Source of the DNA: Streptomyces ardesiacus
GTDB taxonomy: Bacteria; Actinomycetota; Actinomycetes; Streptomycetales; Streptomycetaceae
Assembly: GCF_003112575.1 (NCBI RefSeq)
Contig: NZ_BEWC01000008.1
Coordinates: 248,001 to 312,000 of the forward strand
DNA length: 64,000 nt
Direction: 5' to 3'
A program made the translations under genes and the position numbers. Shown here in pieces: positions 19,061 to 51,992 of the stretch. Every line of letters starts with the position of its first letter. The stretch's first letter is position 1. The notes under the pieces are model-generated. The model was not told where the DNA came from and did no database searches. It worked only from the letters and a program-made list of their open reading frames with translations.

Positions 19061-19241
19061 CGCATGCCCGCATATTGTTCGAGTGTGCGCTCGTGACCAG
19101 CACCGCACGTGGTGACGTACTGTGATTGCTCCTCCTTGACGTGAAGTTGATATTCTCCTGAGTTCTCCTCTCCTGGGGAACGGCCGAGTGTTTTTCGCCC
19201 TTGCAGTGCAATTTCGGTCGTGAGCGCCAAGGAGAAGAACC

Positions 19242-28677: not shown

Positions 28678-30068
28678 GAGCCGCTTCCCGTACGCCGCTC
28701 GCGGGACGTGCCGGCGCTGAACCGGTCCACCTTGTCGATGACGTCGGCGCTGTACAGCCGCAGTGCCTGTTCCAGCGCGAACTCGGCGGCATAGGCGCGC
28801 AGGTGGTCCACCGGCTCCTCGGCGACGTTGATCATGTGCCGGTTCGGGACCACGGCCGGGCTCGCCAGGCGGGCGACCGCAGCCTCGATGCTCGCGTCCA
28901 TCATCTTGGGATCGACCACCTCGTCGCAGACGGCCCCCGCCTCCGGCTCGCGCGCCCAGAGCTTGCGGCCGGACAGGATGACCTGCCGCGACAGCCGCCC
29001 GCCGGCGAGCGCGGTCAGCCGCAGGTTGGCCATGCCCGGGACGATGCCCTCCTGGGCCGCCGGAAGACTGAAGTAGGAGTCGGCGGCGGCGACGACGTGG
29101 TCGACGGCGAACAGCACCTGCATGCCGCCACCGATCGCGAAGCTGTCGACCGCGGCCACCCACGGCTTCTCCACCAGGGCCCGCGGCCAGGCGCCGTCGA
29201 CCCGGACACCGCGGATCAGCTTGTGGAGATGGCCGAGTTCGCGGCGGAGCAGGAAGTCCACGAACGAGATCCGGCCCTGATGCAGGTCGACCAGATTGAT
29301 TCCGGCGCAGAAGACCCGACGGCCCTGGTAGCGCGGGTGGGTCATCTTCCCGCCGCGCAACACCCCCACCTCGACACGGTCGTCGAGCAGGGCGAGGTCG
29401 ACCGCCGTCTCCAGGTCGTCCACGAGCTGGTTGTCCTCGGCATTGAGGAAACGGCCGTTGCACAGGGTGAGGTGGGCCGCCCGGTCCACGCGCTCCAGCC
29501 GTACGGTGCCCAGGTCGAGGCTTCCCGTCCGGTCGAACTCGCCCAGCAGCGAACGGGCGCGCCGGGTGGGCCGCAGCAGGGCCTGCATCAGATGAGGGCC
29601 GGCCTGCGGCGACCGCAGCACCCAGTGGAAGAACAGGCCCTGGTCGATCTCCCGTCCGTCCTTGTCGGCCTGCGTCGCGCACGCGCGTTCCGCCGCCATC
29701 TGCGTCTCGGTCGGGGTGAGGCCGGGAAAGGCCTCGGACGCGGCCGTCACCAGCTCGGACAGCGTGCGATGCTCCCGCAGGCCCCCCGTCAGCTCCTCGT
29801 AGACGCGCTCGGCGTGCAGTTCCAGGAACGCGCTGCGCAACCGCCGCTGGTCGTCGAAGACCTCGGTGGCGAGCTGCTGCTGACCGGGATCCCGTCCGGG
29901 CTTGGCCGGGAGTTCCCCGAGCAGTTTCTCGGCCTCGGCGGTGTACGTCCGCAGCGCGCCCGCGTCGGCCAGCAGGGAGCCGCTGAGGACCGGCGTCCGC
30001 GCGGACCAGTGCGCCGCGACCGCGACGGGGCGCGCCGTCGTGCGGCCCGCTTCTCCCGTGCCGCTCAT
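28674..30068 (-). CDS. dpgC: DpgC-like 3,5-dihydroxyphenylacetyl-CoA dioxygenase
   Basis: 464 residues from the ATG at 30068 (a GTG one codon earlier is possible); the start overlaps the dpgB stop. An N-terminal helical region of about 190 residues precedes a crotonase-fold domain with GRRVFCAGINLVDLH, FAIGGGMQVLFAVDHVVA and LPAAQEGIVPGMANLRL, a layout particular to DpgC. DpgC is a cofactor-independent dioxygenase that turns 3,5-dihydroxyphenylacetyl-CoA into 3,5-dihydroxyphenylglyoxylate with loss of CoA. In glycopeptide clusters this feeds dihydroxyphenylglycine; here the next gene is a decarboxylase, pointing to 3,5-dihydroxybenzoate. The length agrees with known DpgC proteins. Confidence 0.93.
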   Translation of the reverse strand: MSGTGEAGRTTARPVAVAAHWSARTPVLSGSLLADAGALRTYTAEAEKLLGELPAKPGRDPGQQQLATEVFDDQRRLRSAFLELHAERVYEELTGGLREHRTLSELVTAASEAFPGLTPTETQMAAERACATQADKDGREIDQGLFFHWVLRSPQAGPHLMQALLRPTRRARSLLGEFDRTGSLDLGTVRLERVDRAAHLTLCNGRFLNAEDNQLVDDLETAVDLALLDDRVEVGVLRGGKMTHPRYQGRRVFCAGINLVDLHQGRISFVDFLLRRELGHLHKLIRGVRVDGAWPRALVEKPWVAAVDSFAIGGGMQVLFAVDHVVAAADSYFSLPAAQEGIVPGMANLRLTALAGGRLSRQVILSGRKLWAREPEAGAVCDEVVDPKMMDASIEAAVARLASPAVVPNRHMINVAEEPVDHLRAYAAEFALEQALRLYSADVIDKVDRFSAGTSRERRTGSGS

Positions 30069-30781
30069 CACGCGTCGCCCCGGGCGCCCGCGAGTGCGTT
30101 CCTGGTCCGGCGCAACGTCCGGTCGCAGGCGGCGAGATGCTTGCCCAGCGCCTCCTCGAAGGCGGTCGTACCGGCCTCGCTGACCAGCTGGCGACGGATC
30201 GCGAGCTCGGCGGGTTCCAGCCGGGCGAAGCGCCGGGCCAGACGTGCGGCGACGGCGGCCGGGTTCTTGGCCGTCTGGTCGATCAGCCCGATGGCCAGGG
30301 CCCGCTGCTCGGACAGCTCGGCGCCGAACAGGACGAGCCGGCGGGCGTGGAGGCCGCCGAGCTGGTGGGTGAGGCGGTGCAGAGCCATGCCCGCCCAGAC
30401 GCCGTCGTGGGTCACCGGCACGGCGATGCGCAGCCCGGGCGTGCCGATGCGGTGGTCGGCGGTGAGGAGCACGTCGAGGGCGGGGCCGCTGCAGACCCCC
30501 TCGACGGTCACGATCTTGGGGTACCGGCCCTGTTCGAGCCGCCGCAGAGCCTTCTCCCAGCGGCTGACCAGGTCGATGCCGACGTCCCCGGGCCAGTCCT
30601 CCGCCGGACCCGTGCCGTGCAGCCGGATCACGGCGCTCGTCGTGCCTCCCGCGTCTTCCAGCCGGTCGCAGAGGGCGTTGACGTCGGCGATCAGCAAGGG
30701 GCACAGCGGGCGCGTGCCGTCGATGTCGAGGGTGTGGGGGGTCGTCGCGGTCGGGCTCGGGGCGAAGTGCGAGGCAGACAT
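30068..30781 (-). CDS. dpgB: DpgB-like enoyl-CoA hydratase family protein
   Basis: 237 residues; ATG at 30781 with CAGGA upstream. A short crotonase-fold protein with TVEGVCSGPALDVLLTADHRI in the oxyanion region and a C-terminal helical part. DpgB works with DpgD to speed dehydration and aromatisation of the DpgA tetraketide product to 3,5-dihydroxyphenylacetyl-CoA. It lies between dpgA, from which it is separated by a G-rich repeat, and dpgC, which it overlaps. The partner dpgD is far away, at 51993, on the other strand. Confidence 0.9.
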   Translation of the reverse strand: MSASHFAPSPTATTPHTLDIDGTRPLCPLLIADVNALCDRLEDAGGTTSAVIRLHGTGPAEDWPGDVGIDLVSRWEKALRRLEQGRYPKIVTVEGVCSGPALDVLLTADHRIGTPGLRIAVPVTHDGVWAGMALHRLTHQLGGLHARRLVLFGAELSEQRALAIGLIDQTAKNPAAVAARLARRFARLEPAELAIRRQLVSEAGTTAFEEALGKHLAACDRTLRRTRNALAGARGDA

Positions 30782-30923: not shown

Positions 30924-32009
30924 TCAGTAGCGGACGAGCGCCGTCTCGAGCGTCGAACCGGGGCCCATCGTCATGAGGACGCCGTAGTCGCCGGGGCGTG
31001 TCCGGCCCTCCCGCAGCTGCTGCTCGTACGAGAACAGGAAGGAACCGCTGGAGAGGTTGCCGTAGTCGCGCAGCACGTCCGTCGTGTGCCGCACGTCGTG
31101 CCGGGTGAGACCGAGGTTGACCGACACCGAGTCGATGACCTTCTTGCCTCCGGAGTGCACCAGCCAGTGTGCGATCTGGCTGCGCCGCAGCCCGGTCCCG
31201 GCGAGCAGGTCCGAGACGACGCGCTCGGCGTGCGCGCCCACCACGTAGGGCACGTCGCGGTCCAGGTAGAAGCTGAACTTGCCCTGCTCCTCGTCCCAGT
31301 CGTAGCGCATGGCGTCGACGGCGTCGGGAACGATGCAGCTCGCGTACTTCAGAACCTGCGGGCCGGGCTTCTCCGGGTCGTACGAGACGGCGATCGCCGC
31401 GGAGCCGTCACCGAAGAGGCTGTTGACGACGGAGGTGCGCATCGTGCCGTCGAAGACGTACGCGGCCGAGCACACCTCGATGCACACCATCATGGCGGTC
31501 TTCCCCGGGTTCGCCGAGGCCCAGCCGGTGGTCGCGTTGAGGGCGTTGAGACCGGCGTTGCAGCCCATGCCGACGATGTCGAGACGGCCGCAGTCGGTGG
31601 GAATGCCCAGCTCCCGGATGAGCAGCGCACTGAAACCGGGCGTCAGCAGACCCGTCGACGTCACACAGACCAGGTAGCCGATGTCACTGACCGCGGCACC
31701 GGTCTGCTTCAGGCAGGACTGCAGCGCACGGGCGCCCATGTCGACGCCCCGGGCCTTGTGCTTGGCGAGCAGTTCGCCCTGCGTCTCCATCCGCGGCCGG
31801 CCGTCGTCACCGTTCGGCGGAACGGTCAGAAAACGCCGGTCTATCGCGCTGTTGAGGAAGACGGAACGGATCCGCCGGTCCTCGATCGCGTACATGTCCA
31901 GGAGATCCTGCTGCGCATAGGAGGAATCCGGGGTGGCGGTACCGACTCCGAGAACGGTCGGACCGCTCCGTGTTGCCACCCAGGGGACCGTGTCTTCACT
32001 GAGGATCAT
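30924..32009 (-). CDS. dpgA: DpgA-like type III polyketide synthase
   Basis: 361 residues; ATG at 32009 with GAGGGG upstream. Chalcone-synthase-fold enzyme with nucleophile in VGMGCNAGLNAL (Cys150), His in WLVHSGGKK and Asn in RDYGNLSSGS, completing the Cys-His-Asn triad. GNLSSGSFLFSYEQQLREGRTRPG-type C-terminal sequence, read in parts, resembles DpgA. DpgA condenses four malonyl-CoA to a C8 chain that, with DpgB and DpgD, becomes 3,5-dihydroxyphenylacetyl-CoA. It is the first gene of a five-gene operon read toward 25436, and lies 129 bp after the end of the LAL regulator gene on the same strand. Confidence 0.95.
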   Translation of the reverse strand: MILSEDTVPWVATRSGPTVLGVGTATPDSSYAQQDLLDMYAIEDRRIRSVFLNSAIDRRFLTVPPNGDDGRPRMETQGELLAKHKARGVDMGARALQSCLKQTGAAVSDIGYLVCVTSTGLLTPGFSALLIRELGIPTDCGRLDIVGMGCNAGLNALNATTGWASANPGKTAMMVCIEVCSAAYVFDGTMRTSVVNSLFGDGSAAIAVSYDPEKPGPQVLKYASCIVPDAVDAMRYDWDEEQGKFSFYLDRDVPYVVGAHAERVVSDLLAGTGLRRSQIAHWLVHSGGKKVIDSVSVNLGLTRHDVRHTTDVLRDYGNLSSGSFLFSYEQQLREGRTRPGDYGVLMTMGPGSTLETALVRY

Positions 32010-32138: not shown

Positions 32139-32160
32139 CTAGGGGGAATAGGGGGCTGTT
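32139..32160. promoter_or_regulatory. Candidate LAL-responsive motif upstream of dpgA
   Basis: GGGGGAATAGGGGG (within 32142-32155) overlaps the end of vemR and lies about 130 bp ahead of dpgA. AATAGGGG recurs at 41319-41326, next to the PKS promoter. The CTAGGGGGAAT part (from 32139) resembles a half-site of the CTVGGGAWWTCCCBAG element known for the LAL-like regulator PimM. The evidence is only the shared motif and its position. Confidence 0.3.
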
Positions 32161-34943
32161 TCGGAAAGGACTTCGGCGAGTAAGGGTTCCGGCCCGGGTT
32201 CCGGCCCCGACATGTTTTCCGACGTCTCCAGGAATACCGGCAGATCGGTGCGGCTTCGCACCTGGAGCTTGCGGTAGACCTGCGTCAGGTGCTGTTCGAC
32301 GGTGCTCACGGTGATGCACAGCCGCTGCGCTATCTGCCGGTTGCTGTGACCCTGCGCGGCCAGCGCCCCGACCCGCCGCTCGGCCGCGCTGAGGTCCGCC
32401 GCGCGGTCGCCGCCCAGGCGAGGGCCTCCGGAGGCGGCCCGGGCCCCCGTCGTACCGGCGGGACCCGGCCGCAGGGCCTGGGCGAGGCGCTCGGCGTGGC
32501 ACTCCTGCGCCGCCCGCCACGCGCGGCGCAGGGTGGGCTTGGCCCGCCGCGAATCGCCGGTGGCGAGGTAGGCACTGCCGAGGTCGGCGAGGACATGGGC
32601 GAACTCGACCCGGTCACCGGCCGCCTGCGACGCCTCGGCGGCGTCGGTGAGCAGCGGCGGCCGCTCGTGCGGCTCCAGCGTCGCGGCGAGCTGCCGCAGC
32701 GCCCGGCCGAGGACGCGCTCGTCGTCGGCGGGCAGGCCGTCGAGCTGCTCCTCCAGGAGCGAACGCGCCTCGTCCCGGCGGTCGAGGCGCACCAGGGCCT
32801 GGGCGGTGTCGACCCGCCACGGCACCTGGCGGGGACCGTCGGCCCGCCAGTCACGCAGGAGCCGGCCGCAGGTCCTGAAGTCGCTCAGCGCCGCGTAGGG
32901 CCGGCCGACCGCCAGGTGGTAGTGCCCGCGCGCCCGCAGGTAGCGCAGGCCGAACGGCGTTTCGAGCAGCGCGGCCGGCACCGGCATGTTCACGTACGCG
33001 GCGGCGTCCTCGAGACGCCCGGTCTCCACCGCGGTGGTGAGCAGACAGGCGAGGGGCGCACCGGCCAGCACACCCCAGTGCGCCCCGTGGTTCTCGTCCA
33101 GCGCCGCGGACGCCAGCTCGTCCGCCGCCGGCAGGTCGCCCCGGAGCAGTGCCGCGTCGGCGTGCGCCGCCGTGAACAGGCCCTGCCAGTCCGGGCCGTC
33201 CTGCCTCGCCGCGTCCGCGAGCATCGGCAGGCACCACGGCGCCACCGTCGCCAGGCGCTCGGGCCTGGCCAGCGCGAGCAGGCCCAAGGAGATCCTGGAC
33301 AGCGGTTCGTCGGTGCGCAGGCCCTGCCACAGGTGGTCACCCGAGACCGCCACGTCGCCCCTCGCGGCCGTGAGCACGGTGGCGACGAGGGAGGTGCCGA
33401 CCCGGGGGCCGGCCGACGCGGAGGCCGGGGAACCGGTGCTCACGCGGCGACGCCGGGCGGGATAGCAGAGCTCCAGACAGGCGCGCACCGCACCGAGATC
33501 CGCGGCCTCCTCCGGCCCGGCCGCCGTCGCGGTGAGCCGGTCGAGCGTCGTGCTCGCCTCGTCCACCCGGCCGTGCCACAGGAGGTACTCGAGCACGGCC
33601 AGGTGCTGGCGCCCCTCTGTCAGCAGCCCGCGGTGCACCGCGTCCGTGAGCGGGCCGAGGTGGCGCACGGCGCGGGCGGGTTCGACACGCCACTCGGCCT
33701 CGGCGAGCACCGCACGGCTCACGGCGCGTTGCTGCTCGTCGTCGGCGAGGGAGTGGGCCAGTTCGAGGCAGTCGAGGGCGAAGCCGATCTGGCCGCCGGC
33801 GGTCGCGGTGGCGGCGGACTCCATGAGTACGGCCGGCGCCCACGGCTCGCGGGTCTCCCCGGCGGCGATGAGCTGGTGGGCGATCGAGGTGGAACGGCCG
33901 CCCTCGGCGTGCAGCAGGGCGGCGGCGCGCCGGTGCCACGCGAGACGCCCGGGCACTCCGAAGTCCCTGAGGACGGCTTCCTGGGCGGCCCGGTGCCGGT
34001 AGCGGCCCCGGTGCAGCAGACCCGACTCGTCGAGCAGCTCCACGAGTGCGCGGGCCTCGATCGTGCCGACCTCCGCGAGGCGGGCGACGAGCTCGGTCCG
34101 GTGCGCCTCCCCGACCACGGCCACGGCCCTGGCCACGGCGAGCGCGTCCGGCTCCAGGCGGTGCAGGCAGCTCACGACTCGTTCGGCGAAGCGGTCGCCC
34201 ACCACCAGCCCGGTGGGCGGCTCCGTGCGCGCCGACCGGGTGGACGCCTCCCAGTCCTCGGCCAGCGCCGTGACGAGCAGGGGATTGCCGCCGGTGACGG
34301 CGAACGCGCCGGAGGCGAGACTGTGCGCCACGTGCGCGTCGAGGTCGCGAGCGAGCAGTGCTGCGACGCCGTCGCAGGTCAGCGGGGCGAGCCGGACCTG
34401 TGTGCAGTACGGGTGGCGGGACAGCTCGGTGCGCAGATCCGCCTGTCGGGCGCCGGAGCGGTCCTGGTCGCCGAGGACCAGCATGATGCGCGACCGGCGC
34501 AGCCGCCGCGCGAGGAAGAGCAGGCACTGGAGCGAATCGGTGTCCGCGTGGCAGACGTCGTCGACCCCGATGAGCAGGGGCTCCTCGGCGCTCATGTCGA
34601 GGAAGATCCGTGAGACGCCCTCCAGGACCTCGGGCCCGGCCCCGGCGCCCGCACGGAACCCGTCGCCGACGACGGCCTCGGCCCGCCGGGCGTACCGGGC
34701 GCCGGTACCGTGCAGCAGCTGGCTGAGGAGACCGAACGGCAGGTGCCGTTCCGTCGGTGAGGCGGCGGCGCCGAGGAAGCGCACCCGGGCGCCCGCCACC
34801 CGCTCCGCGAAGGTGTGCAGCAGTTCCGTCTTGCCGACCGCCACCGGGCCCCGGAGGACGACGACGCTGCCGGCCGCGTGCAGGCAGTTCTCCAACAGGT
34901 CGGACAGCTGCGCGAGGTGGGGTTCCCGCTCGACCAGCACCAT
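32139..34943 (-). CDS. vemR: LAL-family (large ATP-binding LuxR-type) activator, VemR-like
   Basis: 934 residues from the ATG at 34943, with AGGAGG 9 nt upstream. N-terminal AAA-type ATPase domain with Walker A GPVAVGKTELL and a Walker-B-like LLIGVDDV, a long helical middle, and a C-terminal LuxR helix-turn-helix (SNRQIAQRLCITVSTVEQHL). In S. venezuelae the venemycin cluster contains one LAL gene, vemR, whose constitutive expression switches on an otherwise silent cluster; this gene is in the matching place between the dpg genes and the MFS/halogenase genes. A TTA codon (32181-32183), only 14 codons before the stop, would make completion of the protein, just past the DNA-binding domain, depend on bldA tRNA. 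Confidence 0.92.
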   Translation of the reverse strand: MVLVEREPHLAQLSDLLENCLHAAGSVVVLRGPVAVGKTELLHTFAERVAGARVRFLGAAASPTERHLPFGLLSQLLHGTGARYARRAEAVVGDGFRAGAGAGPEVLEGVSRIFLDMSAEEPLLIGVDDVCHADTDSLQCLLFLARRLRRSRIMLVLGDQDRSGARQADLRTELSRHPYCTQVRLAPLTCDGVAALLARDLDAHVAHSLASGAFAVTGGNPLLVTALAEDWEASTRSARTEPPTGLVVGDRFAERVVSCLHRLEPDALAVARAVAVVGEAHRTELVARLAEVGTIEARALVELLDESGLLHRGRYRHRAAQEAVLRDFGVPGRLAWHRRAAALLHAEGGRSTSIAHQLIAAGETREPWAPAVLMESAATATAGGQIGFALDCLELAHSLADDEQQRAVSRAVLAEAEWRVEPARAVRHLGPLTDAVHRGLLTEGRQHLAVLEYLLWHGRVDEASTTLDRLTATAAGPEEAADLGAVRACLELCYPARRRRVSTGSPASASAGPRVGTSLVATVLTAARGDVAVSGDHLWQGLRTDEPLSRISLGLLALARPERLATVAPWCLPMLADAARQDGPDWQGLFTAAHADAALLRGDLPAADELASAALDENHGAHWGVLAGAPLACLLTTAVETGRLEDAAAYVNMPVPAALLETPFGLRYLRARGHYHLAVGRPYAALSDFRTCGRLLRDWRADGPRQVPWRVDTAQALVRLDRRDEARSLLEEQLDGLPADDERVLGRALRQLAATLEPHERPPLLTDAAEASQAAGDRVEFAHVLADLGSAYLATGDSRRAKPTLRRAWRAAQECHAERLAQALRPGPAGTTGARAASGGPRLGGDRAADLSAAERRVGALAAQGHSNRQIAQRLCITVSTVEQHLTQVYRKLQVRSRTDLPVFLETSENMSGPEPGPEPLLAEVLSETAPYSP

Positions 34944-35204
34944 CCGTGTGCACCTCCTCGGGCCGTGACGGCTCCAGTCTGCGCGGCGCCCTCTGAAGGA
35001 GTGCTGGACGTTCTCTCCCCGCGGACCGGCGCGGCGTCCGGTCCGTGCGGGGTGTCCGGGCCGTGCGGGGTGTCCGGACCGTGCGCGGGGCCGGGAGGCG
35101 CACGGTGTGCGGGAGCGCGTGAGGCCGTGCACATGACGGACCGGCCGCGCGGATGCTGCTCCGCGCGGCCGGTGGGGAGGTGGGTGGTGGTGAGGTCGGT
35201 GGCA

Positions 35205-36716
35205 TCAGCTCCGTTTCGCCGGAGTCGCCTCCGTGCTCCGCGTGCGGGGATGCGGTCCGGGACCGCCGTCCTTGCGGCCCGCCGGGCCCGGCAGGGGACT
35301 CGGGCTCGTACGCGGGAGGAGGAACACGGCGACGAGGACGGCGAAGACCAGCAGACCGCTGTTGGACGCGAACACCCTGCCGTACCCCTCGGTGAGCCGC
35401 GCGGCCGCGGAGTCCGTCGCGGGACCGTTCGACGTGGCGGCGGCCGCGACCGTGCTCATGGCGGCCAGTCCGATGCTGCCGCCGAGCTGGCGCGCGCTGT
35501 TGAGCAGGCCCGACGCCATACCGGCCTCGTTCGGGGCGACCCCCGCGGTCGCCGCGTTGGCGATCGGGACGAGGAGCGGCCCGATGCCGAAGCTGGTCAC
35601 CAGGGAGGGACCGAGGACGTCGACCTGGAAGGTGCCCGTGGGCCTGATCAGGCTGAACCAGTACATGCCGGCGGCGCCGATGATCCCGCCCACGATGAGG
35701 AGCTGCCGGGGCGAGAACCGGGCGAGCAGTTTCACCGCGTACAGCGATCCCACGACGAGGCCGAGGCAGAACGGCAGGAACGCGAGGCCGGCGCTGAGCG
35801 CTCCGAACCCGAGGACCTGCTGGAGGTAGAGGGAGACGAAGTAGAAGGAGGTGAAGATCGTGATGGAGACCATCATCATGTAGAGGTTCGCCCCGGCGAC
35901 CGACCGGTGGGTGAGCACACGCAGCCTCAGCAGGGGTTCCTTGGCGGCGGTGCCCTCGTAGACGAAGAAGCCGGTGAGCAGGACCGCCGCGACGGCCAGG
36001 CCGCCGATCGTGCTCGCCGAACCCCACGACTCGGTCTCGGTCCTGACCAGTGCGAAGACCAGCAGCGACGTGCCCAGGGTGGCCAGGATCGCGCCGACCA
36101 CGTCGAGCTTGCGGGCGGTGTCGCCCGCACCGGCCGCCGCGACGTGACGACGCGCGAGCCACATGCCGGCCAGCGCCATCGGGACGTTCACCAGCATGAC
36201 CCAGCGCCAGTTGATGTACTCCGTGAGCAGACCGCCCACCACGACGCCGACGGCGGCACCGCCGGCCGTGACCGCGCTGTACACGCCGAGGGCTTTGCCG
36301 CGCTGCGGCCCGGCCGGGAAGCTGGTCGTCAGGACGGCGAGCGCGGCCGGGGCGATCAGGGCCGCGCCCACCCCCTGCACGGCCCGCGCGGCGATCAGCT
36401 GGCCCGGGTCCTGCGCGAGGCCGCCCAGGAGCGAGGTGATGCCGAAGAGCGCGAGACCGATCAGGAGCAGTGGCCTGCGGCCGAACCGGTCGGCAGCCCG
36501 CCCGCCCAGAAGCAGCAGTCCGCCGAAGGTGAGTGTGTAGGCGTTGACCACCCAGGACAGTCCCGAGTCGTCGAAGCCGAGCGCCGTCCGCATCGAGGGT
36601 AGAGCGACGTTCACCACCGAGACGTCCAGCGAGACCATGAGCTGGGCCACGGAGACGGTCCACAGGACGCCCCCGGGGCTTACCGCCCGTTCCTCTCGTG
36701 CCGAGTTTTCGTACAT
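35205..36716 (-). CDS. MFS drug exporter, DHA2 (14-TM, EmrB/QacA-like)
   Basis: 503 residues from the ATG at 36716. Family motifs: LDVSVVNVALPSM in helix 1, GRAADRFGRRPLLL in loop 2-3, ARAVQGVGAALIAPAAL in helix 4, and 14 predicted membrane segments. DHA2 proteins export drugs by proton antiport, so this is the likely exporter and self-resistance determinant of the vem product. There is no ribosome site: a well-formed promoter ends 6 nt before the ATG, so the transcript should be leaderless. The start codon itself lies in a GTACATGTAA element resembling the TetR half-sites of the siderophore cluster. Its stop is about 260 bp from the vemR start on the same strand. Confidence 0.9.
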   Translation of the reverse strand: MYENSAREERAVSPGGVLWTVSVAQLMVSLDVSVVNVALPSMRTALGFDDSGLSWVVNAYTLTFGGLLLLGGRAADRFGRRPLLLIGLALFGITSLLGGLAQDPGQLIAARAVQGVGAALIAPAALAVLTTSFPAGPQRGKALGVYSAVTAGGAAVGVVVGGLLTEYINWRWVMLVNVPMALAGMWLARRHVAAAGAGDTARKLDVVGAILATLGTSLLVFALVRTETESWGSASTIGGLAVAAVLLTGFFVYEGTAAKEPLLRLRVLTHRSVAGANLYMMMVSITIFTSFYFVSLYLQQVLGFGALSAGLAFLPFCLGLVVGSLYAVKLLARFSPRQLLIVGGIIGAAGMYWFSLIRPTGTFQVDVLGPSLVTSFGIGPLLVPIANAATAGVAPNEAGMASGLLNSARQLGGSIGLAAMSTVAAAATSNGPATDSAAARLTEGYGRVFASNSGLLVFAVLVAVFLLPRTSPSPLPGPAGRKDGGPGPHPRTRSTEATPAKRS

Positions 36717-36796: not shown

Positions 36797-37456
36797 TCAT
36801 GCCCCGTACCTGTGGGCGGCGCCCCGCAGGTCCGCCGTGAGCTGCGCGGTGGGCCGTACCGCCGCGCAGCAGCCCGCCGCCCAGGAGAGTGCCGCCAGGT
36901 GCTCGTGAGCACTGAAGTCCGCGACCGCGTCGGCCGCGAGAAAGACCTCGAGGTTGTGGCTGAACGCGTCCACCGCCGTGGTGACACAGCCGAGATGCGC
37001 GTACACGCCGCAGATCACGAGCTGGTCGCGGCGCAGCTCCCGCAGCCGCCGCTCCAGGCCGGAGCCGAAGAAGGCGCTGTAGCGCCAGGTGGACAGCACG
37101 GTGCCGCTGACGTTCGGGGCGACCTCGCGCGCGATGGCCGCGTCCTCCAGGGCGTCGTCGAGGCCCTTGCCCCAGAAGTCCGTGAGCAGTCCCCGCTCGC
37201 CCGGCGCCTGGGTGCCGGGCTGCACGGTGTGCACGACCGGCACGCCCAGCCCGCGGCACGTTGCCAGCAAGGCCGAGCAGTTGGTCAGCAGAGCGTCGAG
37301 CGGGGACGTGCCGCGGGCGTAGGGCCGCAGGAAGAAGCCCTGCATGTTGAGGACCAGCAGGACACAACGCCCGGGGTCCACGGTCCAGTCGACCCTGTTT
37401 TCGAGGCCCAGGTCCTGACCGGGCATCGGATACGGATGGAACACGGGGACGTCCAT
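36797..37456 (-). CDS. Isochorismatase-fold protein with catalytic residues replaced
   Basis: 219 residues; ATG at 37456 with GGAGGA upstream. It follows the isochorismatase part of EntB closely (VDWTVDP, TWRYSAFFGS, GVYAHLGCVTTAVDAF, AVADFSAHEHLAAL) and lacks the EntB carrier domain. The catalytic Asp of the LxxDMQ segment is Asn here (LNMQG, Asn37) and the Lys of VLVKWRYSAF is Thr (LSTWRYSAF, Thr123), while the GVYAHxGC segment is kept. Isochorismate hydrolysis is therefore unlikely, and nothing in the predicted vem pathway needs it. It is co-directional with the flavin reductase, 26 bp after it. Binding of an aromatic intermediate or assistance in cyclisation is speculative. Confidence 0.82.
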   Translation of the reverse strand: MDVPVFHPYPMPGQDLGLENRVDWTVDPGRCVLLVLNMQGFFLRPYARGTSPLDALLTNCSALLATCRGLGVPVVHTVQPGTQAPGERGLLTDFWGKGLDDALEDAAIAREVAPNVSGTVLSTWRYSAFFGSGLERRLRELRRDQLVICGVYAHLGCVTTAVDAFSHNLEVFLAADAVADFSAHEHLAALSWAAGCCAAVRPTAQLTADLRGAAHRYGA

Positions 37457-37482: not shown

Positions 37483-38010
37483 TCAGGAGATGAAGTCGTA
37501 CGACAGGAAGCCGTTCTCCATGTCCTCCGCCCAGGACCCGTACCGGCGCATGCCGTACAGCAGGGGTATCGGCCGGCGCAGGGAGGTGACCTGCGTGGCG
37601 CGGGCCATCACCACCGTGTGGTCGCCGACGGCCTGTTCGGTGGTGACCGTGCAGTCGGCGATCGTGTGCGCCGCCTCGACCAGGTGCGGGCCGCCGTGCC
37701 GGGCCGGTACCCACGGCACCCGGTCGAACCGGTCCGCGGCCCCCGAGCCGAACAGCTCGGCGGCGGAACGGGCGTGCTGGTGGAGCAGGTTCACGGACAG
37801 CGACCCGCTGTCCAGCACGGCGCCGAGGGTGGGGCTGCCGGCGCGCAGACAGACGAGCAGGGTCGGCGGATCGAGGGCGACACTGCACAGTGAGGTGCAC
37901 GTCATCCCCCAGGGGGTGCCGTCCGGGGCCTGCGCCGTCACGACGGAGACACCCGTGGGAAATCCGGCGAACAGGCGCCGCAGATCGGCTTCGTACCGCT
38001 GGTGCGACAT
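37483..38010 (-). CDS. Flavin reductase (HpaC/SsuE-like, flavin-dependent halogenase partner)
   Basis: 175 residues; ATG at 38010 after GAGGAACC. A flavin-reductase-like FMN-binding split barrel with FPTGVSVVTA near the N-terminus, MTCTSLCSVALDPPTLLVCL and FSVNLL-like LSVNLLHQHA. These enzymes reduce free FAD or FMN with NAD(P)H and hand it to flavin-dependent halogenases or monooxygenases. Two halogenase genes lie directly upstream on the same strand, and the venemycin cluster was reported to encode two halogenases and one flavin reductase. A hairpin in the 130-bp gap before it may reduce read-through from the first halogenase gene. Confidence 0.9.
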   Translation of the reverse strand: MSHQRYEADLRRLFAGFPTGVSVVTAQAPDGTPWGMTCTSLCSVALDPPTLLVCLRAGSPTLGAVLDSGSLSVNLLHQHARSAAELFGSGAADRFDRVPWVPARHGGPHLVEAAHTIADCTVTTEQAVGDHTVVMARATQVTSLRRPIPLLYGMRRYGSWAEDMENGFLSYDFIS

Positions 38011-38140: not shown

Positions 38141-39826
38141 TCAGTAGTCCCGGGAGCCGGTCCCGGTCTCCGCCTCCTTGGCGAGCGCCATGCCCCGGGC
38201 GGCGTTGATCATGCGGGTGCCGATCTCCGGCGGGGCCTGGGTGCGCGACCACTCCTCGGCCGCGTCCATCCGCTCCCGTGTCATGTTGAAGCAGCGGTTC
38301 TCCGGCAGCCCGAACTTGTCGGCGTGCGCGATGAAGTCCACTTCCTTCTGGATGTACTCGTGGATGCGCGCGGCGGCGGCACCCGGCTCGACGGTCCCGG
38401 CCTCGACCGCCTCGCACAGCTCACGGGTGAGCTTGCCCATCCGGACGAAGCTCTCGCTGATCGGGAGGGGGGACCCCGGGTTCCCGGACCGCTCGGCGTC
38501 GAGGAAGACCTCCGGGTCGCCGGTCTCGCTGAACCGGTAGTAGGCGTCCTCGACCATCATGTTGCCGCTCATCGTCCCGAGCATCCAGGTCCGGTTGACG
38601 GCGTTCCACAGCTCGTAGTGGCCGAAGCCGACGAACGAGCTGTAGACCAGGTCGTCGTGGAAGTCGAACAGTCCCTGGTGCAGCGCCTCCACGTGGGCGA
38701 ACCGCTCCTTGGACCAGTCGCCGTCGCGGGAGGCGGCGATGAGCCGCCAGCCCAGGGCGTTGACGAGTTCCAGGGTGTTCGCCAGGCCGCGGGAGTACAG
38801 CGCGTCGATGAACCCGGCGGCGTGGGACGTCAGGCAGTAGCGGTCGCCGACGACCGTCTTGGCGGAGTACTGGAGCCGGCCGGTGGAGACCCACGGGCGG
38901 ACCTCCTTCGCCCCCTCGAACTGCCAGGCGATCTCGGGGAACCGCGCGAGGAAGTCCCGGAACTCCTGCTCCGGGGGCGTGTCGCCCTTGGGGTACTTGC
39001 GCGGGTCCAGGGTGAGGCCGACGCTGCACAGCGGGTTGCGGGCCGCGGCATGGTTGTCGAACGGGATCACCCAGAGCCAGCCGCCGTCGAAGACGTGGTG
39101 CAGCGTGCCGTGGTGCCACGGGCTCGGCTGGTCGTGCTGCCGCGCGGTGGGCGAGTCGTCGAACGGCTTCACGCCGATCATGTGCGTGAAGAGACAGCGT
39201 GAGTGGGTCCGGGCCCGCGTGGGCGTCTCGCGCAGGTCGAACTTCTCCGCGAGCGGCGAGCGGAACCCGCTGCCGTCGACCACGTACGAGGCCCGGAACT
39301 CCTCGCCGTGCTCCGTGCGCAGGACCGCGCCCTGCTCCGGGTCGATGTCGATCTCGGTGACGCGGGTCGCGAGCCGTGCGTCGGCGCCGTACGTGAGCGC
39401 CACGTGGAACAGGTGCGCGTCGACGTCCTGCCGGAACAGGTGGGTCTCGGTGCGCAGGTCGACCGGGACCACCAGCTGGTTGATCTCCTGCGGGTTCTGC
39501 GGCTGCCCCTCGCGGTGGTAGACGAAGCCGAAGTTCTGCTTCTGGCCGCAGTTGGGGGAGACCTCCTCGATGGTGCCCTTGTAGTTCGACAGGGCCTTCA
39601 GCTCGGGCACGTCGTAACGCTTCGCGATGAGCCGGGCCATGCCCGAGGTGTAGGGGATGGTCGACTCGCCCACCGCGAAACGCGGATGGGTGCCCGCGTC
39701 CAGGATGAGGGTCTTCACCCCGTTGCGCGCGAGCACCGCGCCCAGCATGCCCCCGGCCATGCCGCTGCCGAGGATCGCCACGTCGTACCGGTCTGTCTCC
39801 GTGGAGGCGGAGTTCTTGGCGTGCAC
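38141..39826 (-). CDS. Flavin-dependent halogenase 1
   Basis: 561 residues; GTG at 39826 behind AAGGAAGAACAG. FAD-binding GSGMAGGMLG near the N-terminus, GESTIPYTS, and the halogenase signature WxWxIP in GGWLWVIPFD. A candidate catalytic Lys lies in CGQKQNFGFVYH. It is longer than the second halogenase and quite different in sequence, so the two probably act at different positions or stages. The substrate should be the phenolic vem product or a carrier-bound intermediate. In the venemycin study only monohalogenated product accumulated and bromide was preferred over chloride; which of the two enzymes is responsible is not settled by the sequence. Confidence 0.88.
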   Translation of the reverse strand: MHAKNSASTETDRYDVAILGSGMAGGMLGAVLARNGVKTLILDAGTHPRFAVGESTIPYTSGMARLIAKRYDVPELKALSNYKGTIEEVSPNCGQKQNFGFVYHREGQPQNPQEINQLVVPVDLRTETHLFRQDVDAHLFHVALTYGADARLATRVTEIDIDPEQGAVLRTEHGEEFRASYVVDGSGFRSPLAEKFDLRETPTRARTHSRCLFTHMIGVKPFDDSPTARQHDQPSPWHHGTLHHVFDGGWLWVIPFDNHAAARNPLCSVGLTLDPRKYPKGDTPPEQEFRDFLARFPEIAWQFEGAKEVRPWVSTGRLQYSAKTVVGDRYCLTSHAAGFIDALYSRGLANTLELVNALGWRLIAASRDGDWSKERFAHVEALHQGLFDFHDDLVYSSFVGFGHYELWNAVNRTWMLGTMSGNMMVEDAYYRFSETGDPEVFLDAERSGNPGSPLPISESFVRMGKLTRELCEAVEAGTVEPGAAAARIHEYIQKEVDFIAHADKFGLPENRCFNMTRERMDAAEEWSRTQAPPEIGTRMINAARGMALAKEAETGTGSRDY

Positions 39827-39863: not shown

Positions 39864-41153
39864 TCAGTTCTCGGCGGAGGCGGAGGCGGAGGCGGAGGCA
39901 GGGGTCTCGGGCACGAGGTCGTCGACGGTGATGTCCAGGGCGAGGTGCTTGCCCCGCAGCCCGGCCAGGAGCGTGACGAAGTCGTTCGCCGGCGTGTTCT
40001 TCTGCTCCGGGTCGATCACCGACTGCGCCAGCTTGTGGTAGTCCTCCTTCATCAGCGACCGGTCGTAGAAGCGCTCCACGAAGGAACGGACCTCGTTGAA
40101 GAAGCTCAGGTAGGCGGTGGCGTAGCGCTTGAGCGCCGTCTCCTCGATCTCGGGGTACTGGAGGACCTTGTCGATGACCCGGGACAGGATGCTGCCCGCG
40201 GTCGTCGCCAGCGCGACACCGGTCGAGATCAGCGGGTCGACGAACGCGGCCGCGTCACCGACGGCGGCCCAGCCCTTCCCGTAGACGGTCTGGTTCGTGT
40301 ACGACCAGTCCCGGGCGCTGCGGAAACCGGCCGACTGACGCGCGTCGCGCAGCATGTGCTTGAGCTTCGTGGTCTTCTCGATCTCGTCGCGGTAGAGCCG
40401 TTCGAGGCCCTGGTCGCTCTCGCCGGCGACCGTGCTCGGCGTCACGAAACCGACGCTGATCGTCCCCTTGTCGAGCGGGATTCCCCAGAACCAGCCGTTC
40501 TCGATGCCCTCGACCAGGATGTTGCTGTACTGGTCGCCGGGCAGCCGCTCGCAGTTGTCGAAGTACGTCCACACGGCGACGTTGCGGAGCTTGTCGTGCC
40601 AGTCGATCTCCGAGTACTTGCGGGTGAGGACGCGTGCCTGGCCCGAGGCGTCCACCACCATGGCGGACCTGGCCTCGTAGGTCTCCTTGCCGCCGCGCAC
40701 GGTGAAGCGGACGCCCGTGACCCGGCCGTCCTCCTCGACGGGCTCCTTCACCGTGGCGTCCTCGACGACGTACGCCCCCAACTCCCGCGCCCGGTCCAGG
40801 ATCACCGAGTCCAGGTCGGCGCGCCGGGTGTGGTACGCGAACGGATAGTCGCCGCCGTCGACGAAGGAGAAGTCCCAGGCCGCCTGCTCGTTTCCCCAGA
40901 CGAACGTTCCGCCGTACTTGCGCTCGAATCCACGCTGTTCCAGCCGCTCGGTGAGTCCCATTTCCTTCATGGGGGCCATCACCACCGGGATAAGTGATTC
41001 GCCGACGTGGTAACGCGGGAAACGCTCACGGTCCAGAATCAGCACTTGGTGTCCGCGCTTGGCGAGAAGCCCGGCGGTGGTGGCACCGGCCGGCCCGCCC
41101 CCGATAACGATGACATCGAATTCAGTGGGTATACCAGTGAGACTGGACGGCAT
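39864..41153 (-). CDS. Flavin-dependent halogenase 2
   Basis: 429 residues from the ATG at 41153 (GGGAAGGT upstream); a longer frame upstream has no support. FAD motif IGGGPAGATTAGLLA, GESLIP, candidate catalytic Lys in ERKYGGTFVWG, WxWxIP signature in NGWFWGIPLD, and GDAAAFVDPLISTGV. This is the phenol/pyrrole halogenase type that often acts on carrier-bound or free phenolic substrates. The C-terminus ends in an ASASASAS tract encoded by a hexanucleotide repeat. It is the first gene of the leftward halogenase - halogenase - reductase group and divergent from the PKS genes. Confidence 0.9.
   Translation of the reverse strand: MPSSLTGIPTEFDVIVIGGGPAGATTAGLLAKRGHQVLILDRERFPRYHVGESLIPVVMAPMKEMGLTERLEQRGFERKYGGTFVWGNEQAAWDFSFVDGGDYPFAYHTRRADLDSVILDRARELGAYVVEDATVKEPVEEDGRVTGVRFTVRGGKETYEARSAMVVDASGQARVLTRKYSEIDWHDKLRNVAVWTYFDNCERLPGDQYSNILVEGIENGWFWGIPLDKGTISVGFVTPSTVAGESDQGLERLYRDEIEKTTKLKHMLRDARQSAGFRSARDWSYTNQTVYGKGWAAVGDAAAFVDPLISTGVALATTAGSILSRVIDKVLQYPEIEETALKRYATAYLSFFNEVRSFVERFYDRSLMKEDYHKLAQSVIDPEQKNTPANDFVTLLAGLRGKHLALDITVDDLVPETPASASASASAEN
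39874..39899. repeat. GGAGGC-type hexanucleotide repeat at the 3' end of halogenase 2
   Basis: Four to five copies of a 6-bp unit encoding alternating Ala and Ser at the C-terminus of halogenase 2. The frame is kept whatever the copy number, so variation would only change the tail length. Confidence 0.7.
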
Positions 41154-41422: not shown

Positions 41423-44400
41423 GTGACGCACGTCGAAGACATCCGGCCACTTTCCGAAGTGCTGCGCGACCATGCGCTCGACCGTCCGGAAAAGATCGCG
41501 TTCGCCGACGAGGGGCGCGAGGTCACCTACGCGCGGCTCGCCGAGCGCACCGGGCGGCTGGCCGGCCACCTGGCCGGTGCCGGGGTGGAGCGCGGCGACC
41601 GGGTCGCGATCCTGCTCGGCAACAGCGTCACGACCGTCGAGAGCTATCTCGCGGTCACCCGCGCCGCCGCCGTGGGCGTGCCGGTCAACCCCCAGTCCTC
41701 GGACGCCGAACTGGCCCACCAACTGGACGACAGCGGGGCCCGCTTCGTCATCACCGACGGCGTCCACCTGGAGCAGGTCGAGCGGATGAGGGCGACGCGG
41801 GAGGGGGTGGTCGTCGTCCTCGCCCACGGCGACGCCTCCGGTGGCCGCACCCCCGCCGCAGGAGTCCTCGTCTTCGAGGAACTCGCCGAGAGCGAGCCGC
41901 CGCGGGGGCCGCGGGACGACCTCGGCCTCGACGAACCGGCCTGGATCCTCTACACGTCCGGAACCACCGGCGCGGCCAAGGGCGTGGTCTCCCACCAGCG
42001 GGCCTGTCTGTGGTCGGTCCACCACTCCTACCAGGGCGTCCTCGGCCTCGGCCCCGACGACCGGCTGCTGTGGCCGCTGCCGCTCTTCCACAGCCTCGCC
42101 CACATCCTCTGCGTCCTGGGCGTGACCGTCACCGGAGCCACCGCGCGCATCCTCCCCGGCTTCGGCGCCCAGGACGTGCTGGAGGCCCTGCGCGCCGCGC
42201 CGTGCACGCTGCTCCTGGGTGTCCCGTCGATGTACTTCCAGCTCGTCGAGGCGGTGTTGGCGGCCGAGGAGGACGGCGGTGAGGTCCCCAGGCCGCGGGT
42301 CTGCCTGGTCACCGGCGCGGCGACCGGCGCGGCGCTCGCCTCGGCGGTCGAGCGGGTCCTCGGCGCCCCGCTCGTCAACAGCTACGGCTCCACCGAGACC
42401 TGCGGCGCGATCACCATGAGCCGCCCCGGTTCCCCTCGGCCGCCCGGCACCTGCGGGACCGTGGTGCCCGGCGCCGAACTGCGCCTGGCCGACCCGCGCA
42501 CCGGCCTCGGCACGCGGGCCGGCGACGAGGGCGAGGTGCTCGTCAAGAGCCCCGGTCTGATGCTGGGGTACCACGGACGGCCGGAGGAGACCGCGGCCGC
42601 GCTGCGCGACGGCTGGTACCGCACCGGAGACCTGGCCCGGCGCGACGCCGAGGGGCACCTGACGATCACCGGCCGGGTCAAGGAGCTGATCATCCGGGCC
42701 GGGGAGAACATCCAGCCCGGCGAGATCGAGGACGTTCTGCGCCAGGTCCCGGGCATCGTGGACGTGGCCGTGACGGGCCGTTCCGACGAGGCACTGGGCG
42801 AGGTCCCCGTCGCCTACGTGGTGCCCGCCGCCGAGGGCTGGTCGCCCGCCGAGGCCCTGGCTGCCTGCCGGGACCGGCTCAGCTACTTCAAGGTCCCGGC
42901 GGAGCTCTACGAAACAGCCGCCCTGCCGCTCACCGCATCCGGCAAGGTCAGCCGCCGCAGACTGCCGGACCTCCCCGCCCGGCTGCGGGGCGTCGGCACC
43001 AGCCACCACGACCACCTGTGGCGCACCGCATGGGTCCCGTGGCAGCCGGAGGCGGCGCCGCCCGGATCCGACGACGCTCCTGCGGCAGCGGGGACGACGG
43101 CCGGTCCGGCGGCGCGCTGGGCCGTGATCGGGGCCGGGGACCCGGCGTTCACGGAAGCCGTGCGCCGCGCGGGCGGTGTCACCGAGCCCTTTCCCGACCT
43201 CGCGGCGGCACGTGCCGCCGGGCCGTTCGACGGCTGCCTGCTGACGGCCGGCGTGCCGGACGCCGGTGAGCCTTCGCGCGTGTCCGCCCTGTCGCCGGAC
43301 GCGGAGGGGGACGGGCCGTGCGGCGTGCCGGAGGCCGGTGAGCCGTCGGACGGGCGTGCCGGGCCGTCGGGTCCGGGGGCGGGCGAGCCGTCCGGGGCCC
43401 GGATCGTCGTCCTCACCCGGGGTGCCGTGGCCGGCCGCCCCGGCGAGCGGGTGGACCCGGCCGCGGCGGCCTCGCGCGCCCGGCTCCTCGCCCCCGGGCC
43501 CGGCCGGAGGGTCCTGGTCGACCTGGAGCCGGGGGAGCGGACCGGGGACGCGCACGTCGCCGCCTGGCGCACGATCCTGGACGCGCCCGCGGGGGAGCCG
43601 GAGTTCGCCGTCCGCGCCGGAGAGGTCCTCGTGCCGCGGCTGTCCCGCCTCCGGGCCACCGCCGAGATCGCCGCTGTGCCGCCACGGCCGGGCGGCACCG
43701 CCCTCGTCACGGGCGCGGGCACCCGCCTCGCCCACGTGCTCGCCGTCCACCTCGTCGTGAACCACGAAGTCCGTGACCTCGTCCTCACCGGGGCCGACCC
43801 GGCCGCGGCCCGGTCCCTGGCCGCCGAACTGACCCGTCTCGGCGCCACCGTGACGGTACGCGGCGACGTCCCGGAAACGCCCGAGGGCGTCGCCGCCCTG
43901 CTCGCCGTCCTCGGCCCGGACCGTCCGCTCGACACGGTCGTCCACCCCGTGACCACCCTCGCCGACGCGACGGCCGCCGGACGGCTGCTCACCCTGACCC
44001 GCGGCACCGGACACACGACCCTCACCCTGTGCGGCACGTCCGTCCACCCCGGCATCCACCCCGCGGAGCCCGCCGCGGCGGCGGCCACCGCCTACGCCGC
44101 CGCGCTCACCCACGACACCCCCCACGCCACCTTCCTGGCCTTCGGCCCGGTCACCGCCGACAAGGACGTCCCCGACACGTCACCGCCGGGCCTCGCCGTG
44201 CTCACCGCCCGGCAGGCGGCCGACGCCTTCGACGCCGGGCGGGCGACGGCGGGCGGCCAGGCCCTCGTGATGCGCACCGACCCGTGGACGGCGCGGTCCG
44301 CCGGGGCCGCCCGGTTCCGCCGGCTGCTCCAGGCACCCTCCGGCGGCGCGGGCCCGGCCGCCGACGACGAACTGCGGGACCGGCTCGACGGGCTGCTCCC

Positions 44401-47400
44401 CAGGGCCCGTGACCGGGCGCTGACCGAGCTCGTACGGGACGAGGCGGCACGGGTGCTCGGACTCGACGAGCCGAGGCGGATCGAGCCCGGCCGCCCCTTC
44501 ACCCACCTCGGGCTCACCTCGCTCACCGCCGTCGTCCTGCGGGACCGGCTGGCCGCGCGGACCGGGCTGCGCCTGCCCGTGACGCTCGCCTTCGACCACC
44601 CGACCCCCGCGGCGCTGGCCGCGGCCCTGGAGCGCGAGCTGTTCGGCCGCCGCCCGGACGGCGTCACCGAGCAGCTCCCCACACGTGCCGCCGGCGCCTC
44701 CGGCCCTGCTGACGACCCCGTCGTCGTCGTGGGCATGAGCTGCCGCTACCCCGGAGGCGTCGCCTCACCGGAGGACCTGTGGCGGCTCGTCGCCGAAGGC
44801 CGCGACGCCATCGGCGCGTTCCCCTCCGACCGGGGCTGGGACCTGGAGCGGCTGCTGCGCGGCGACGGCACGGAACCCGGCACCTCGGCCACCGCGTCCG
44901 GCGGATTCCTCGACGCGCCGGGCGACTTCGACGCCGCCTTCTTCGGCATCAGCCCGCGCGAGGCCCTCGCCATGGACCCGCAGCAGCGACTGCTCCTGGA
45001 AGTCGGCTGGGAGGCCGTCGAACGCGCCGGCATCGACCCGACCGCCCTGCGGCAGACGGACACCGGCGTGTACGTCGGACTGATGTTCCACGACTACGCC
45101 AAGAATCCCGGCCCCCTCCCGGAGGACCTGGAGCGGCTCCTCGGCACGGGCACCGCAGGCAGTGTCGCCTCCGGACGCCTCGCCTACACCCTGGGCCTGA
45201 GCGGCCCCGCCCTCACGGTCGACACCGCCTGTTCCTCCTCGCTCGTCGCCGTCCACCTCGCCGCGCAGGCGCTGCGCCGGGACGAGTGCTCGCTCGCCCT
45301 GGCCGGCGGCGTCGCCGTCATGGCGACCCCCAGCACCTTCGTCGAGTTCAGCCGCCAGCACGGCCTCGCCCCCGACGGACGGTGCAAGGCCTTCGCCGCG
45401 GGCGCCGACGGCACCGGCTGGTCCGAGGGCGTCGGCGTCGTCGTCCTGGAACGCCTCTCCGACGCACGCCGCAACGGCCACCCGGTGCTCGCCGTGGTCC
45501 GTGGCAGCGCCGTCAACCAGGACGGTGCCAGCAACGGCCTGACCGCGCCCAGCGGACCGGCCCAGCAGCGGGTCATCCGCCGGGCCCTGGTCGACGCGGG
45601 CCTCACGCCCGCCGACGTCGACGCCGTCGAGGCGCACGGCACGGGAACCGTCCTCGGCGATCCCATCGAGGCCAACGCGCTCCTCGCCACCTACGGCCAG
45701 GACCGCGACCCGCGACGCCCGCTCCTGCTCGGCTCGTTCAAGTCCAACATCGGCCACGCCCAGTCCGCGGCCGGCGTCGGCGGCGTCATCAAGATGATCG
45801 AGGCGATGCGCCACGGAGAACTGCCCCGTACCCTGCACGTCGACCGGCCGACCCCGGCCGTGGACTGGGACTCCGGGGCGGTACGCCTGCTGCGGGAGCA
45901 CACCGTCTGGCCCGACACCGAGGGCCGCCGCCGGGCCGCCGTGTCCTCCTTCGGCGTCAGCGGCACCAACGCCCACCTCGTCCTGGAACAGGCCCCCGAC
46001 CCCCTGCCCGCCGCCGCCCCGCCGGCCGGGCTCCCGGGCTCCGTGCCGGTCGTGCTGTCGGCCCGCACCGCCTCGGCCCTGCGCCGCCGGGCCGAGCTCC
46101 TGCTCGACCGGTTGCGCGCGGACCGGGAGCCGCGCCTCCCCGACCTCGCGGCCGCCCTCGCCACCACCCGTACGAGCTTCCCGCGACGCACGGCGTTCGT
46201 CGTGGACAGCGCCGCGGAACTGGAGCGCCGGCTGACGGCCGTCGCCGCCGGCCAGGACCCCGGAGTCGCCACGGACGAGCCGTCCGTGCAACCGTCGTTG
46301 GCCCTCGGGTTCACCGGCCAGGGCAGCCAACGCCCCGGAATGGGCCAGGAGCTGTACGCCGCACATCCCGTCTTCGCCCAGGCGCTCGACGCGGCCTGCG
46401 CCGTCCTCGACCCGCACCTCGACCATCCGTTGCGCGACGTCATGTGGGCGGCCCGGGGCTCCCGGCGGGCCGCGCTCCTCGACCGTACCGACTTCACACA
46501 GGCCGCGTTGTTCGCCCTCGGCAGCGCCCTCTTCCGGCTGGTCGAGTCCTGGGGCGTCGTGCCCGACCTCGTCATGGGACACTCCGTCGGCGCGCTGACC
46601 GCCGCACACGCGGCCGGGGTGCTGTCCCTCGGGGACGCCGCCTCGCTCGTCGCGGCCCGCGGCCGCCTGATGGCCGCACTGCCGGCCGGCGGCGCCATGA
46701 TCGCCGTCGGGGCGACCGAGGACGAGGTCCGGTCCGTGCTCGCGACCGCGGACCGGACCCTGGCCGTCGCCGCGGTGAACGGCCCCCGCTCGGTCGTGGT
46801 GTCCGGCGAAGAGGGCGCCGTACGGACCGTCGCCGAGCTGTTCCGGTCGCGGAAGCGCCGGGTGACCGCCCTGCGGGTCAGCCACGCCTTCCACTCGCCG
46901 CTCATGGAGCCCATGCTGGAGGAGTTCGGAGCGACGGCGCGGAAGCTGACCTACCGGCCGCCCCTCATCCCGATGATCTCCGACCTCACCGGCCGGCCTG
47001 CCGAGCCGGACCAGCTCCGCTCGCCCGACTACTGGGTCCGCCACGTCCGGGAGGCCGTCCGCTTCGCGGACGCCGTGCGCGCCCTGCCCGGTGAGGGGAT
47101 CACGGCCTTCCTCGAACTCGGTCCCGACCGTCAGCTCACCACCATGGCGGGCGACTGCCTGCCCGGCTCGGCACTCGCCCTGTGCGGAGGGCTGCGCCGC
47201 GGACGTTCCGAGGTGCGCGCGCTCCTCGAAGCGGTGGCGCTGGCCCACACGCACGGCATCCCCGTCGACTGGCAAGAGCTCTTCGCCGGACATCCCGCGC
47301 ACCCGGTCGACCTGCCCGTCTATCCCTTCGAGCACCGGAGGTACTGGCTCGCCTCGGGGACGGCGAACACCGAAGCCGCCGCGCAGGCGGCGATGCCCGC

Positions 47401-51890: not shown

Positions 51891-51992
51891 CACGGCGGGA
51901 ACGGCCGAGCGACCGGGCGCGGTCCCTGTGCCGCTCGGCTCCTCGCACGCCGTGCCACCGGCCGGGTCCACACTCGACGAAAAGGACGACGG

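Follow-up and report, generated by a model that had tools for sequence, protein, structure and literature searches.

The gene that occupies positions 36797 to 37456 on the minus strand of the window (the window being the whole stretch of 64,000 nucleotides of Streptomyces ardesiacus DNA that was analysed) raises the question of what a protein of the isochorismatase fold is doing in an aromatic polyketide cluster when residues at the heart of the isochorismatase active site have been replaced. The open reading frame encodes 219 amino acids plus a stop codon from an ATG start, and its product matches the isochorismatase domain PF00857 over the whole domain (profile positions 2 to 175 of 175; E 5.5e-33; 114.9 bits against a curated cut-off of 27). 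The nearest sequences of solved structure are PhzD 1nf9 (5.9e-50), EntB 2fq1 (2.3e-48) and VibB 3tg2 (2.6e-48), with the twelve best of them spanning E values from 5.9e-50 to 1.4e-43. Matches of the protein to NCBIfam profiles all fell far below the curated cut-offs, and a plasmid search listed no relative of more than 60% identity. The genome to which the window belongs contains five isochorismatase-domain genes; among the other four the best match to this protein is at 6.8e-10. Two of these paralogues (L002 and L005) could be aligned with it and have both Lys and Cys, and the other two (L001 and L004) gave no match to it at 1e-3. A structure prediction from four rows (the window, L006, L007 and L008) reached a mean pLDDT of 45 and was set aside.

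The gene within a venemycin-type cluster

The sequence-only reading of this DNA had placed the gene between a flavin reductase and an exporter, and Pfam matches of the neighbours show this order to be correct. A flavin reductase of the VemL type (37483 to 38010; PF01613, 8e-31) lies 26 nt upstream and an MFS exporter of the VemO type (35205 to 36716; PF07690) lies downstream. On the far side of the reductase are two genes with matches to PF04820, one for an FAD-dependent halogenase-like protein of the VemK type (38141 to 39826) and one for an FAD-dependent halogenase of the VemJ type (39864 to 41138), the start codon of which is uncertain, the frame being open further upstream. Beyond the exporter come a LuxR-type ATP-binding regulator of the VemR type (32139 to 35132), a type III PKS of the VemA/DpgA type (30924 to 32009) and a DpgB-like protein of the VemB type (30068 to 30781). 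All of these neighbours are on the minus strand and were assigned by Pfam and by synteny. Two type I PKS genes assigned by Pfam are on the plus strand, one of the VemG type with a loading A domain and KS-AT-ACP (41423 to 47998) and one of the VemH type with KS-AT-ACP-TE (48000 to 51890); a thiamine-diphosphate enzyme and an aldehyde dehydrogenase are next in the cluster. Judged by sequence, this set of genes is the venemycin (vem) set of S. venezuelae, as described in the part of PMC5132015 that was available. The PPTase gene vemI (sven0484, 231 aa) is numbered in that part of the account between vemD and vemH. It is absent from the same place in the window (51890 to 51993), where the vemH- and vemD-type genes are only about 100 bases apart.

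The S. venezuelae orthologue, sven0490, has been described as an isochorismatase homologue with no apparent role (PMC5132015, available, like the other two sources cited below, in part). It was shown there by RT-PCR that vemL, sven0490 and vemO are co-transcribed and that deletion of sven0490 in the heterologous host S. coelicolor M1825 leaves venemycin production unchanged, and the venemycin scheme put forward in the same part of the paper has no open step for sven0490. The available part makes no mention of a loss of catalytic residues, which is what the present analysis adds to that account. Among the papers searched, PMC5132015 was the sole match for sven0490, and a search on isochorismatase pseudoenzymes returned a single paper, which concerns microcompartment loci.

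Orthologues were found by a contig scan, which gave L006, L007 and L008 together with the truncated L009, and by a genus search, which added G015, G025 and G041 (the last being L008 again). Counting the window, there are six distinct vem loci (the window, L006, L007, L008/G041, G015 and G025). In all six the order vemJ, vemK, vemL, isochorismatase-fold gene, vemO, vemR, DpgA, DpgB beside vemG is the same (in L008 the contig ends within vemG), and in all six the isochorismatase-fold gene is intact. A further genus draw and a class draw yielded no new vem-type orthologue. Genomes with a VemK-type protein of at least 90% identity were G000, G015, G041 and G025 in a genus draw of 392 and G000 and G912 (the genome of L006) in a family draw of 384, and the isochorismatase-fold gene is present in these. 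G015 is presumably S. venezuelae, as the lengths of three of its proteins (216 aa and, by match coordinates, 2236 and 1325 aa) are those published for that species in the part of the record available. One vem-like cluster may lack the gene, since S. roseochromogenus is given as the best match for VemK (93%) and VemL (86%) whereas the best match for sven0490 is a 52% one in S. exfoliatus (PMC5132015, same part). The truncated relative in L009 (10001 to 10306), from S. xantholiticus, shares several cap residues with the vem proteins and has Thr123, and no other vem gene was recognised in the 13 kb examined around it.

Residues of the active site

By eye, the earlier reading had equated the Asp of the DMQ motif with Asn37 and the Lys of VKWRYSAF with Thr123. 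Alignments to PhzD and EntB agree on both points: Asn37 (in LNMQ) is paired with the Asp of HDMQ, and Thr123 (in TWRYSAF) with the Lys of KWRYSAF. An alignment of orthologues had been proposed as a check on whether the residues are restored elsewhere. It was run on the six vem loci and gave no refutation, Asp37 and Lys123 being absent from all six; the G015 protein, which like the window gene has the Sven0490 place in the cluster, is among those without them. A change of His36 to Leu had been overlooked.

The six vem-clade proteins were aligned with 86 other Streptomyces isochorismatases, these being the better-ranked matches of the genus search (26 loci and 60 further places) among the matches listed. 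Left out before alignment were duplicates (L008, L011 and L013, the same genes as L012, L070 and L072), the window gene retrieved again (L003), the truncated L009, repeat fetches (L074, L075 and L078), the own-genome Pfam matches (L001, L002, L004 and L005) and loci fetched for other genes. Among the matches listed, all 86 ordinary proteins have His at position 36, Asp at 37, Lys at 123 and Gly at 156. The vem clade has Leu at position 36 (6/6), Asn (five) or Thr (one) at 37, Ala (four) or Thr (two) at 123 and Gly (four) or Ser (two) at 156. Twenty-seven columns are invariant in the 86 ordinary proteins, again among the matches listed, and the vem clade departs from these at 36, 37, 123 and 156 alone. 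The probability that 37, 123 and 156 would all be among four columns drawn at random is 0.0014, a value computed after the changed columns had been seen. The observation of residue loss as a whole is therefore confirmed, being both clade-wide (6/6) and specific (0/86 of the others, among the matches listed). A class-wide draw gave matches in 39 of 296 genomes, and the nine loci that were checked (eight of them new, L145 repeating L081) keep His36, Asp37 and Lys123. Gln79 is thus not a universal feature beyond the vem clade, since two of these nine loci carry Lys there. Sequencing error was also considered as a cause of the residue loss and was rejected, as six genomes agree.

The roles of these residues have been described in structural work on the family (PMC12210187, available in part). 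Gln79 and Arg88 hold the ring carboxylate and Asp37 is catalytic, and the amides of Tyr152 and Gly156 bind the pyruvyl carboxylate with Lys123 nearby. All six vem-clade proteins have Gln79, Arg88 and Tyr152, and the pocket aromatics Phe42, Trp95, Tyr126, Tyr152 and Phe181 are kept, Trp95 being reported as part of the dimer interface as well as of the pocket (PMC12210187, same part). Neither the catalytic Asp of HDMQ nor the catalytic Lys of KWRYSAF that would mark a PhzD/EntB enzyme is found, whereas the ring-carboxylate pair of that type is, and at the pyruvyl-carboxylate site Tyr152 is retained in 6/6 and Gly156 in 4/6, with Ser in 2/6. With the published roles mapped on to the kept and lost positions, the ring-carboxylate half of the site is preserved and the enolpyruvyl half taken apart. 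The protein is thus like PhzD of P. aeruginosa, EntB, VibB and the EntB type of S. maltophilia in its domain, its length and its Gln79, Arg88, Trp95, Tyr126, Tyr152 and Phe42, but unlike these enzymes in having no Asp37, Lys123 or His36, in its rewritten and frozen cap with Lys97 and in its place in an aromatic polyketide cluster.

It is very improbable that the protein is still an isochorismatase working through a rearranged active site. The fold, the ring-carboxylate residues and Tyr152 are all kept, which would be in agreement with such an enzyme, but Asp, Lys and His are lost across the whole vem clade. In addition, the database sequences of VibB 3tg2 and PhzD 1nf8, which we take to be engineered, inactive variants, have Asn and Ala respectively at the position of the catalytic Asp. 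PhzD and VibB 3tg2 have been reported as captured with isochorismate (PMC12210187, in the part available), and this, too, speaks against retained activity. The 219-residue protein would on these grounds not be expected to hydrolyse isochorismate.

The nicotinamidase-type cysteine hydrolases, with which the protein shares PF00857, carry Asp-Lys-Cys. The vem clade is unlike them at position 156, where Cys was looked for and Gly or Ser was found in all six, and identity as a cysteine hydrolase was rejected on this basis.

Selection and the cap region

The six vem proteins form one branch of the tree (support 100/100, length 0.98) with no intermediate among the matches listed, and because of this the divergence among the six is read as later than the loss of the residues. 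The median dN/dS inside the clade is 0.32 (15 pairs), and values for seven neighbour genes range from 0.155 to 0.33. The isochorismatase-fold gene is constrained, yet it is among the faster-evolving genes of the cluster, with a dN/dS similar to that of VemR.

In the solved family the pocket is capped by residues 79 to 104 together with the N-terminus (PMC12210187, in the part available). Over codons 76 to 108 of the present gene (37133 to 37231, minus strand) pN is 0.012 and pS 0.234 (pN/pS 0.05), compared with a pN of 0.159 and a pS of 0.363 (pN/pS 0.44) in the remainder. In the vem clade 31 of the 33 positions in this segment are invariant and identity is 0.974. By comparison, 1500 sextets of ordinary proteins with the same divergence elsewhere, drawn from 73 of the 86 (among the matches listed), had at most 27 invariant positions in 76 to 108, and none of them reached an identity of 0.974. 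The stretch had been picked after the alignment was seen, and two further controls were therefore run on 1000 matched sextets from 72 of the 86 ordinary proteins (among the matches listed). Within the published cap 24 of 26 positions are invariant in the vem clade, as against at most 21 in the ordinary sextets (0/1000 match). When each ordinary sextet was given its own best 33-residue stretch the mean was 26.3 and the maximum 30, as against 31 here (0/1000, a narrow margin). Seventeen residues are fixed in the clade and present in no more than two of the 86 others (among the matches listed); eight of these fall in the 33 positions of 76 to 108 and nine in the 186 elsewhere. Several of the eight are acidic and one is Lys97, at a position that is Lys in 6/6 vem proteins and, among the matches listed, Pro in 81 and Lys in none of the 86 others. 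A cap that has been rewritten and then frozen, together with catalytic positions that are free to vary, fits better with a changed function than with decay.

Synonymous divergence is unusually low in codons 91 to 105 (window 37142 to 37186; pS 0.124). The use of two-fold codons in a genome rich in GC may be the cause, and gene conversion may have acted on these codons, although over 76 to 108 pN drops about 13-fold and pS by only about a third.

It might be argued that the gene is a decaying remnant, an isochorismatase that once belonged to a siderophore cluster of the ancestor and has persisted as a passenger in the operon. The unchanged venemycin production after deletion of sven0490 (PMC5132015, in the part available), the relatively high dN/dS and the truncated S. 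xantholiticus relative, with its Thr123 and its 13 kb free of recognised vem neighbours, would all be in agreement with this. However, the gene is intact in 6/6 loci, its dN/dS is well below 1 and its cap is more conserved than in ordinary isochorismatases of equal divergence, and we regard a relic as improbable. A plain pseudogene is rejected by dN/dS, synteny and the frozen cap.

The frozen cap could also reflect the gain of a new catalytic activity, acting for instance on venemycin or a halogenated form of it, or on an aryl ester, by way of Lys97 and the acidic residues at 100, 101, 104 and 105. The restriction of Lys97 to the vem clade and the crowding of clade-fixed residues into the cap speak for such an activity. 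Against it, the old catalytic set varies inside the clade at all three positions (N/T, T/A and G/S) and the published venemycin scheme, in the part available, has no step open for a further enzyme (PMC5132015), so that new catalysis seems rather unlikely, if worth keeping in mind. Alternatively, the cap may be a contact surface, the protein being a scaffold or regulator that partners the flavin reductase, a halogenase, the exporter or the salicylate synthase described below. The clade-specific and partly acidic residues of the frozen segment, the operon shared with vemL and vemO (PMC5132015, same part) and the presence of the salicylate synthase 14.7 to 20.5 kb away in 6/6 loci are consistent with a partner protein. 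This too is unlikely, as the cap covers the substrate pocket in the solved family (PMC12210187, in the part available) and the ligand-side residues Gln79 and Arg88, not obviously needed by a pure scaffold, are kept.

Candidate ligands and the neighbouring salicylate cluster

The absence of the residues from six strains and an almost unchanged cap suggest that an old isochorismatase has been reused for a new job. To our minds the chances are about even that the protein is a non-hydrolytic ligand-binding protein, most likely for a benzoate-type acid. On this view hydrolysis would have been lost by a PhzD/EntB-type isochorismatase where the vem lineage began, and the protein would then have been kept as a non-hydrolytic ligand binder, presumably a homodimer that binds a benzoate-type acid without the enolpyruvyl arm. 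The ligand might be the starter unit of vem, 3,5-dihydroxybenzoate, or else a compound from the cluster next to it, either salicylate or isochorismate itself. Within the halogenation/export operon the protein might serve as a carrier, a buffer or a sensor, and would not be an enzyme on which biosynthesis depends. Gln79 and Arg88 may have been kept for folding or dimer contacts instead, which would weigh against ligand binding. It had been suggested from the sequence that the fold may have a new role with an aromatic polyketide. The selection data uphold a retained and changed function; that this function concerns the polyketide would be one possibility, the M1825 deletion having left venemycin unchanged (PMC5132015, in the part available).

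A siderophore-type cluster lies directly beside the vem-type cluster at window positions 1 to 22610 and contains a salicylate synthase (19224 to 20609, plus strand; TIGR03494, 425.6 bits against a cut-off of 325.15), an aryl-AMP ligase with a DHB-AMP ligase as best match (under the cut-off of that profile), an NRPS, a B12-binding radical-SAM protein, an ABC exporter and regulators. The claim that the cluster makes no isochorismate product holds for the vem cluster as published but is incomplete, the salicylate synthase having been overlooked. Five matches to isochorismate synthase were found in the window's genome, none over the cut-off, one of them being the salicylate synthase. Isochorismate is an intermediate in the reaction of salicylate synthases, and the class of compound that the fold binds may therefore be made next door. 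The salicylate synthase is 16.2 kb from the isochorismatase-fold gene in the window and 14.7 to 20.5 kb from it in the five other loci (77 to 90% identity). With a salicylate cluster beside the gene in 6/6 loci a link to the salicylate pathway is therefore possible, although this amounts to about one observation rather than six because the six loci share ancestry and linkage was counted at vem loci alone. Elsewhere in G025 and G041 there is a further salicylate synthase, more distantly related (52%). The siderophore-type cluster resembles that for watasemycin and thiazostatin, and for S. venezuelae the latter has been listed together with venemycin as a single block (PMC6584129, in the part available). 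An lsr2 mutant of S. venezuelae is reported in the same source to yield venemycin, chlorinated venemycin, watasemycin and thiazostatin.

With S. coelicolor as the carrier of the vem cluster and venemycin as the measure, a deletion would be expected to miss an effect on the salicylate pathway, and the readout and host of the published experiment suggest that an effect may not show there. The published puzzle of an isochorismatase that is co-transcribed with vem genes yet plays no part in venemycin production may in this way become a testable case, in which isochorismatase activity is not expected and the key region is named by selection. A bolder and less probable reading is that the protein senses or carries an aromatic acid and so joins the halogenated polyketide and salicylate pathways, with a cap rebuilt around its new ligand, or else that it has a new chemistry that uses cap residues such as Lys97. 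Were ligand binding without hydrolysis to be borne out, the protein would be a natural and selected counterpart of the isochorismatases that bind substrate without cleavage, and an entry point to the role of dead-site paralogues in biosynthetic clusters.

A second group of VemK relatives (72 to 75%; L076, L077 and L149 to L156, in G921, G904, G702, G787, G730, G779, G718 and G828) shows a different arrangement in the two loci examined, L076 and L077. The isochorismatase-fold protein was sought in both, with no match in L076 and none better than E 0.78 in L077, and the gene is absent from each; a VemJ relative (65 to 67%) is near the VemK relative in both. VemK relatives of this group recur in Streptomyces and in two other genera of the family.
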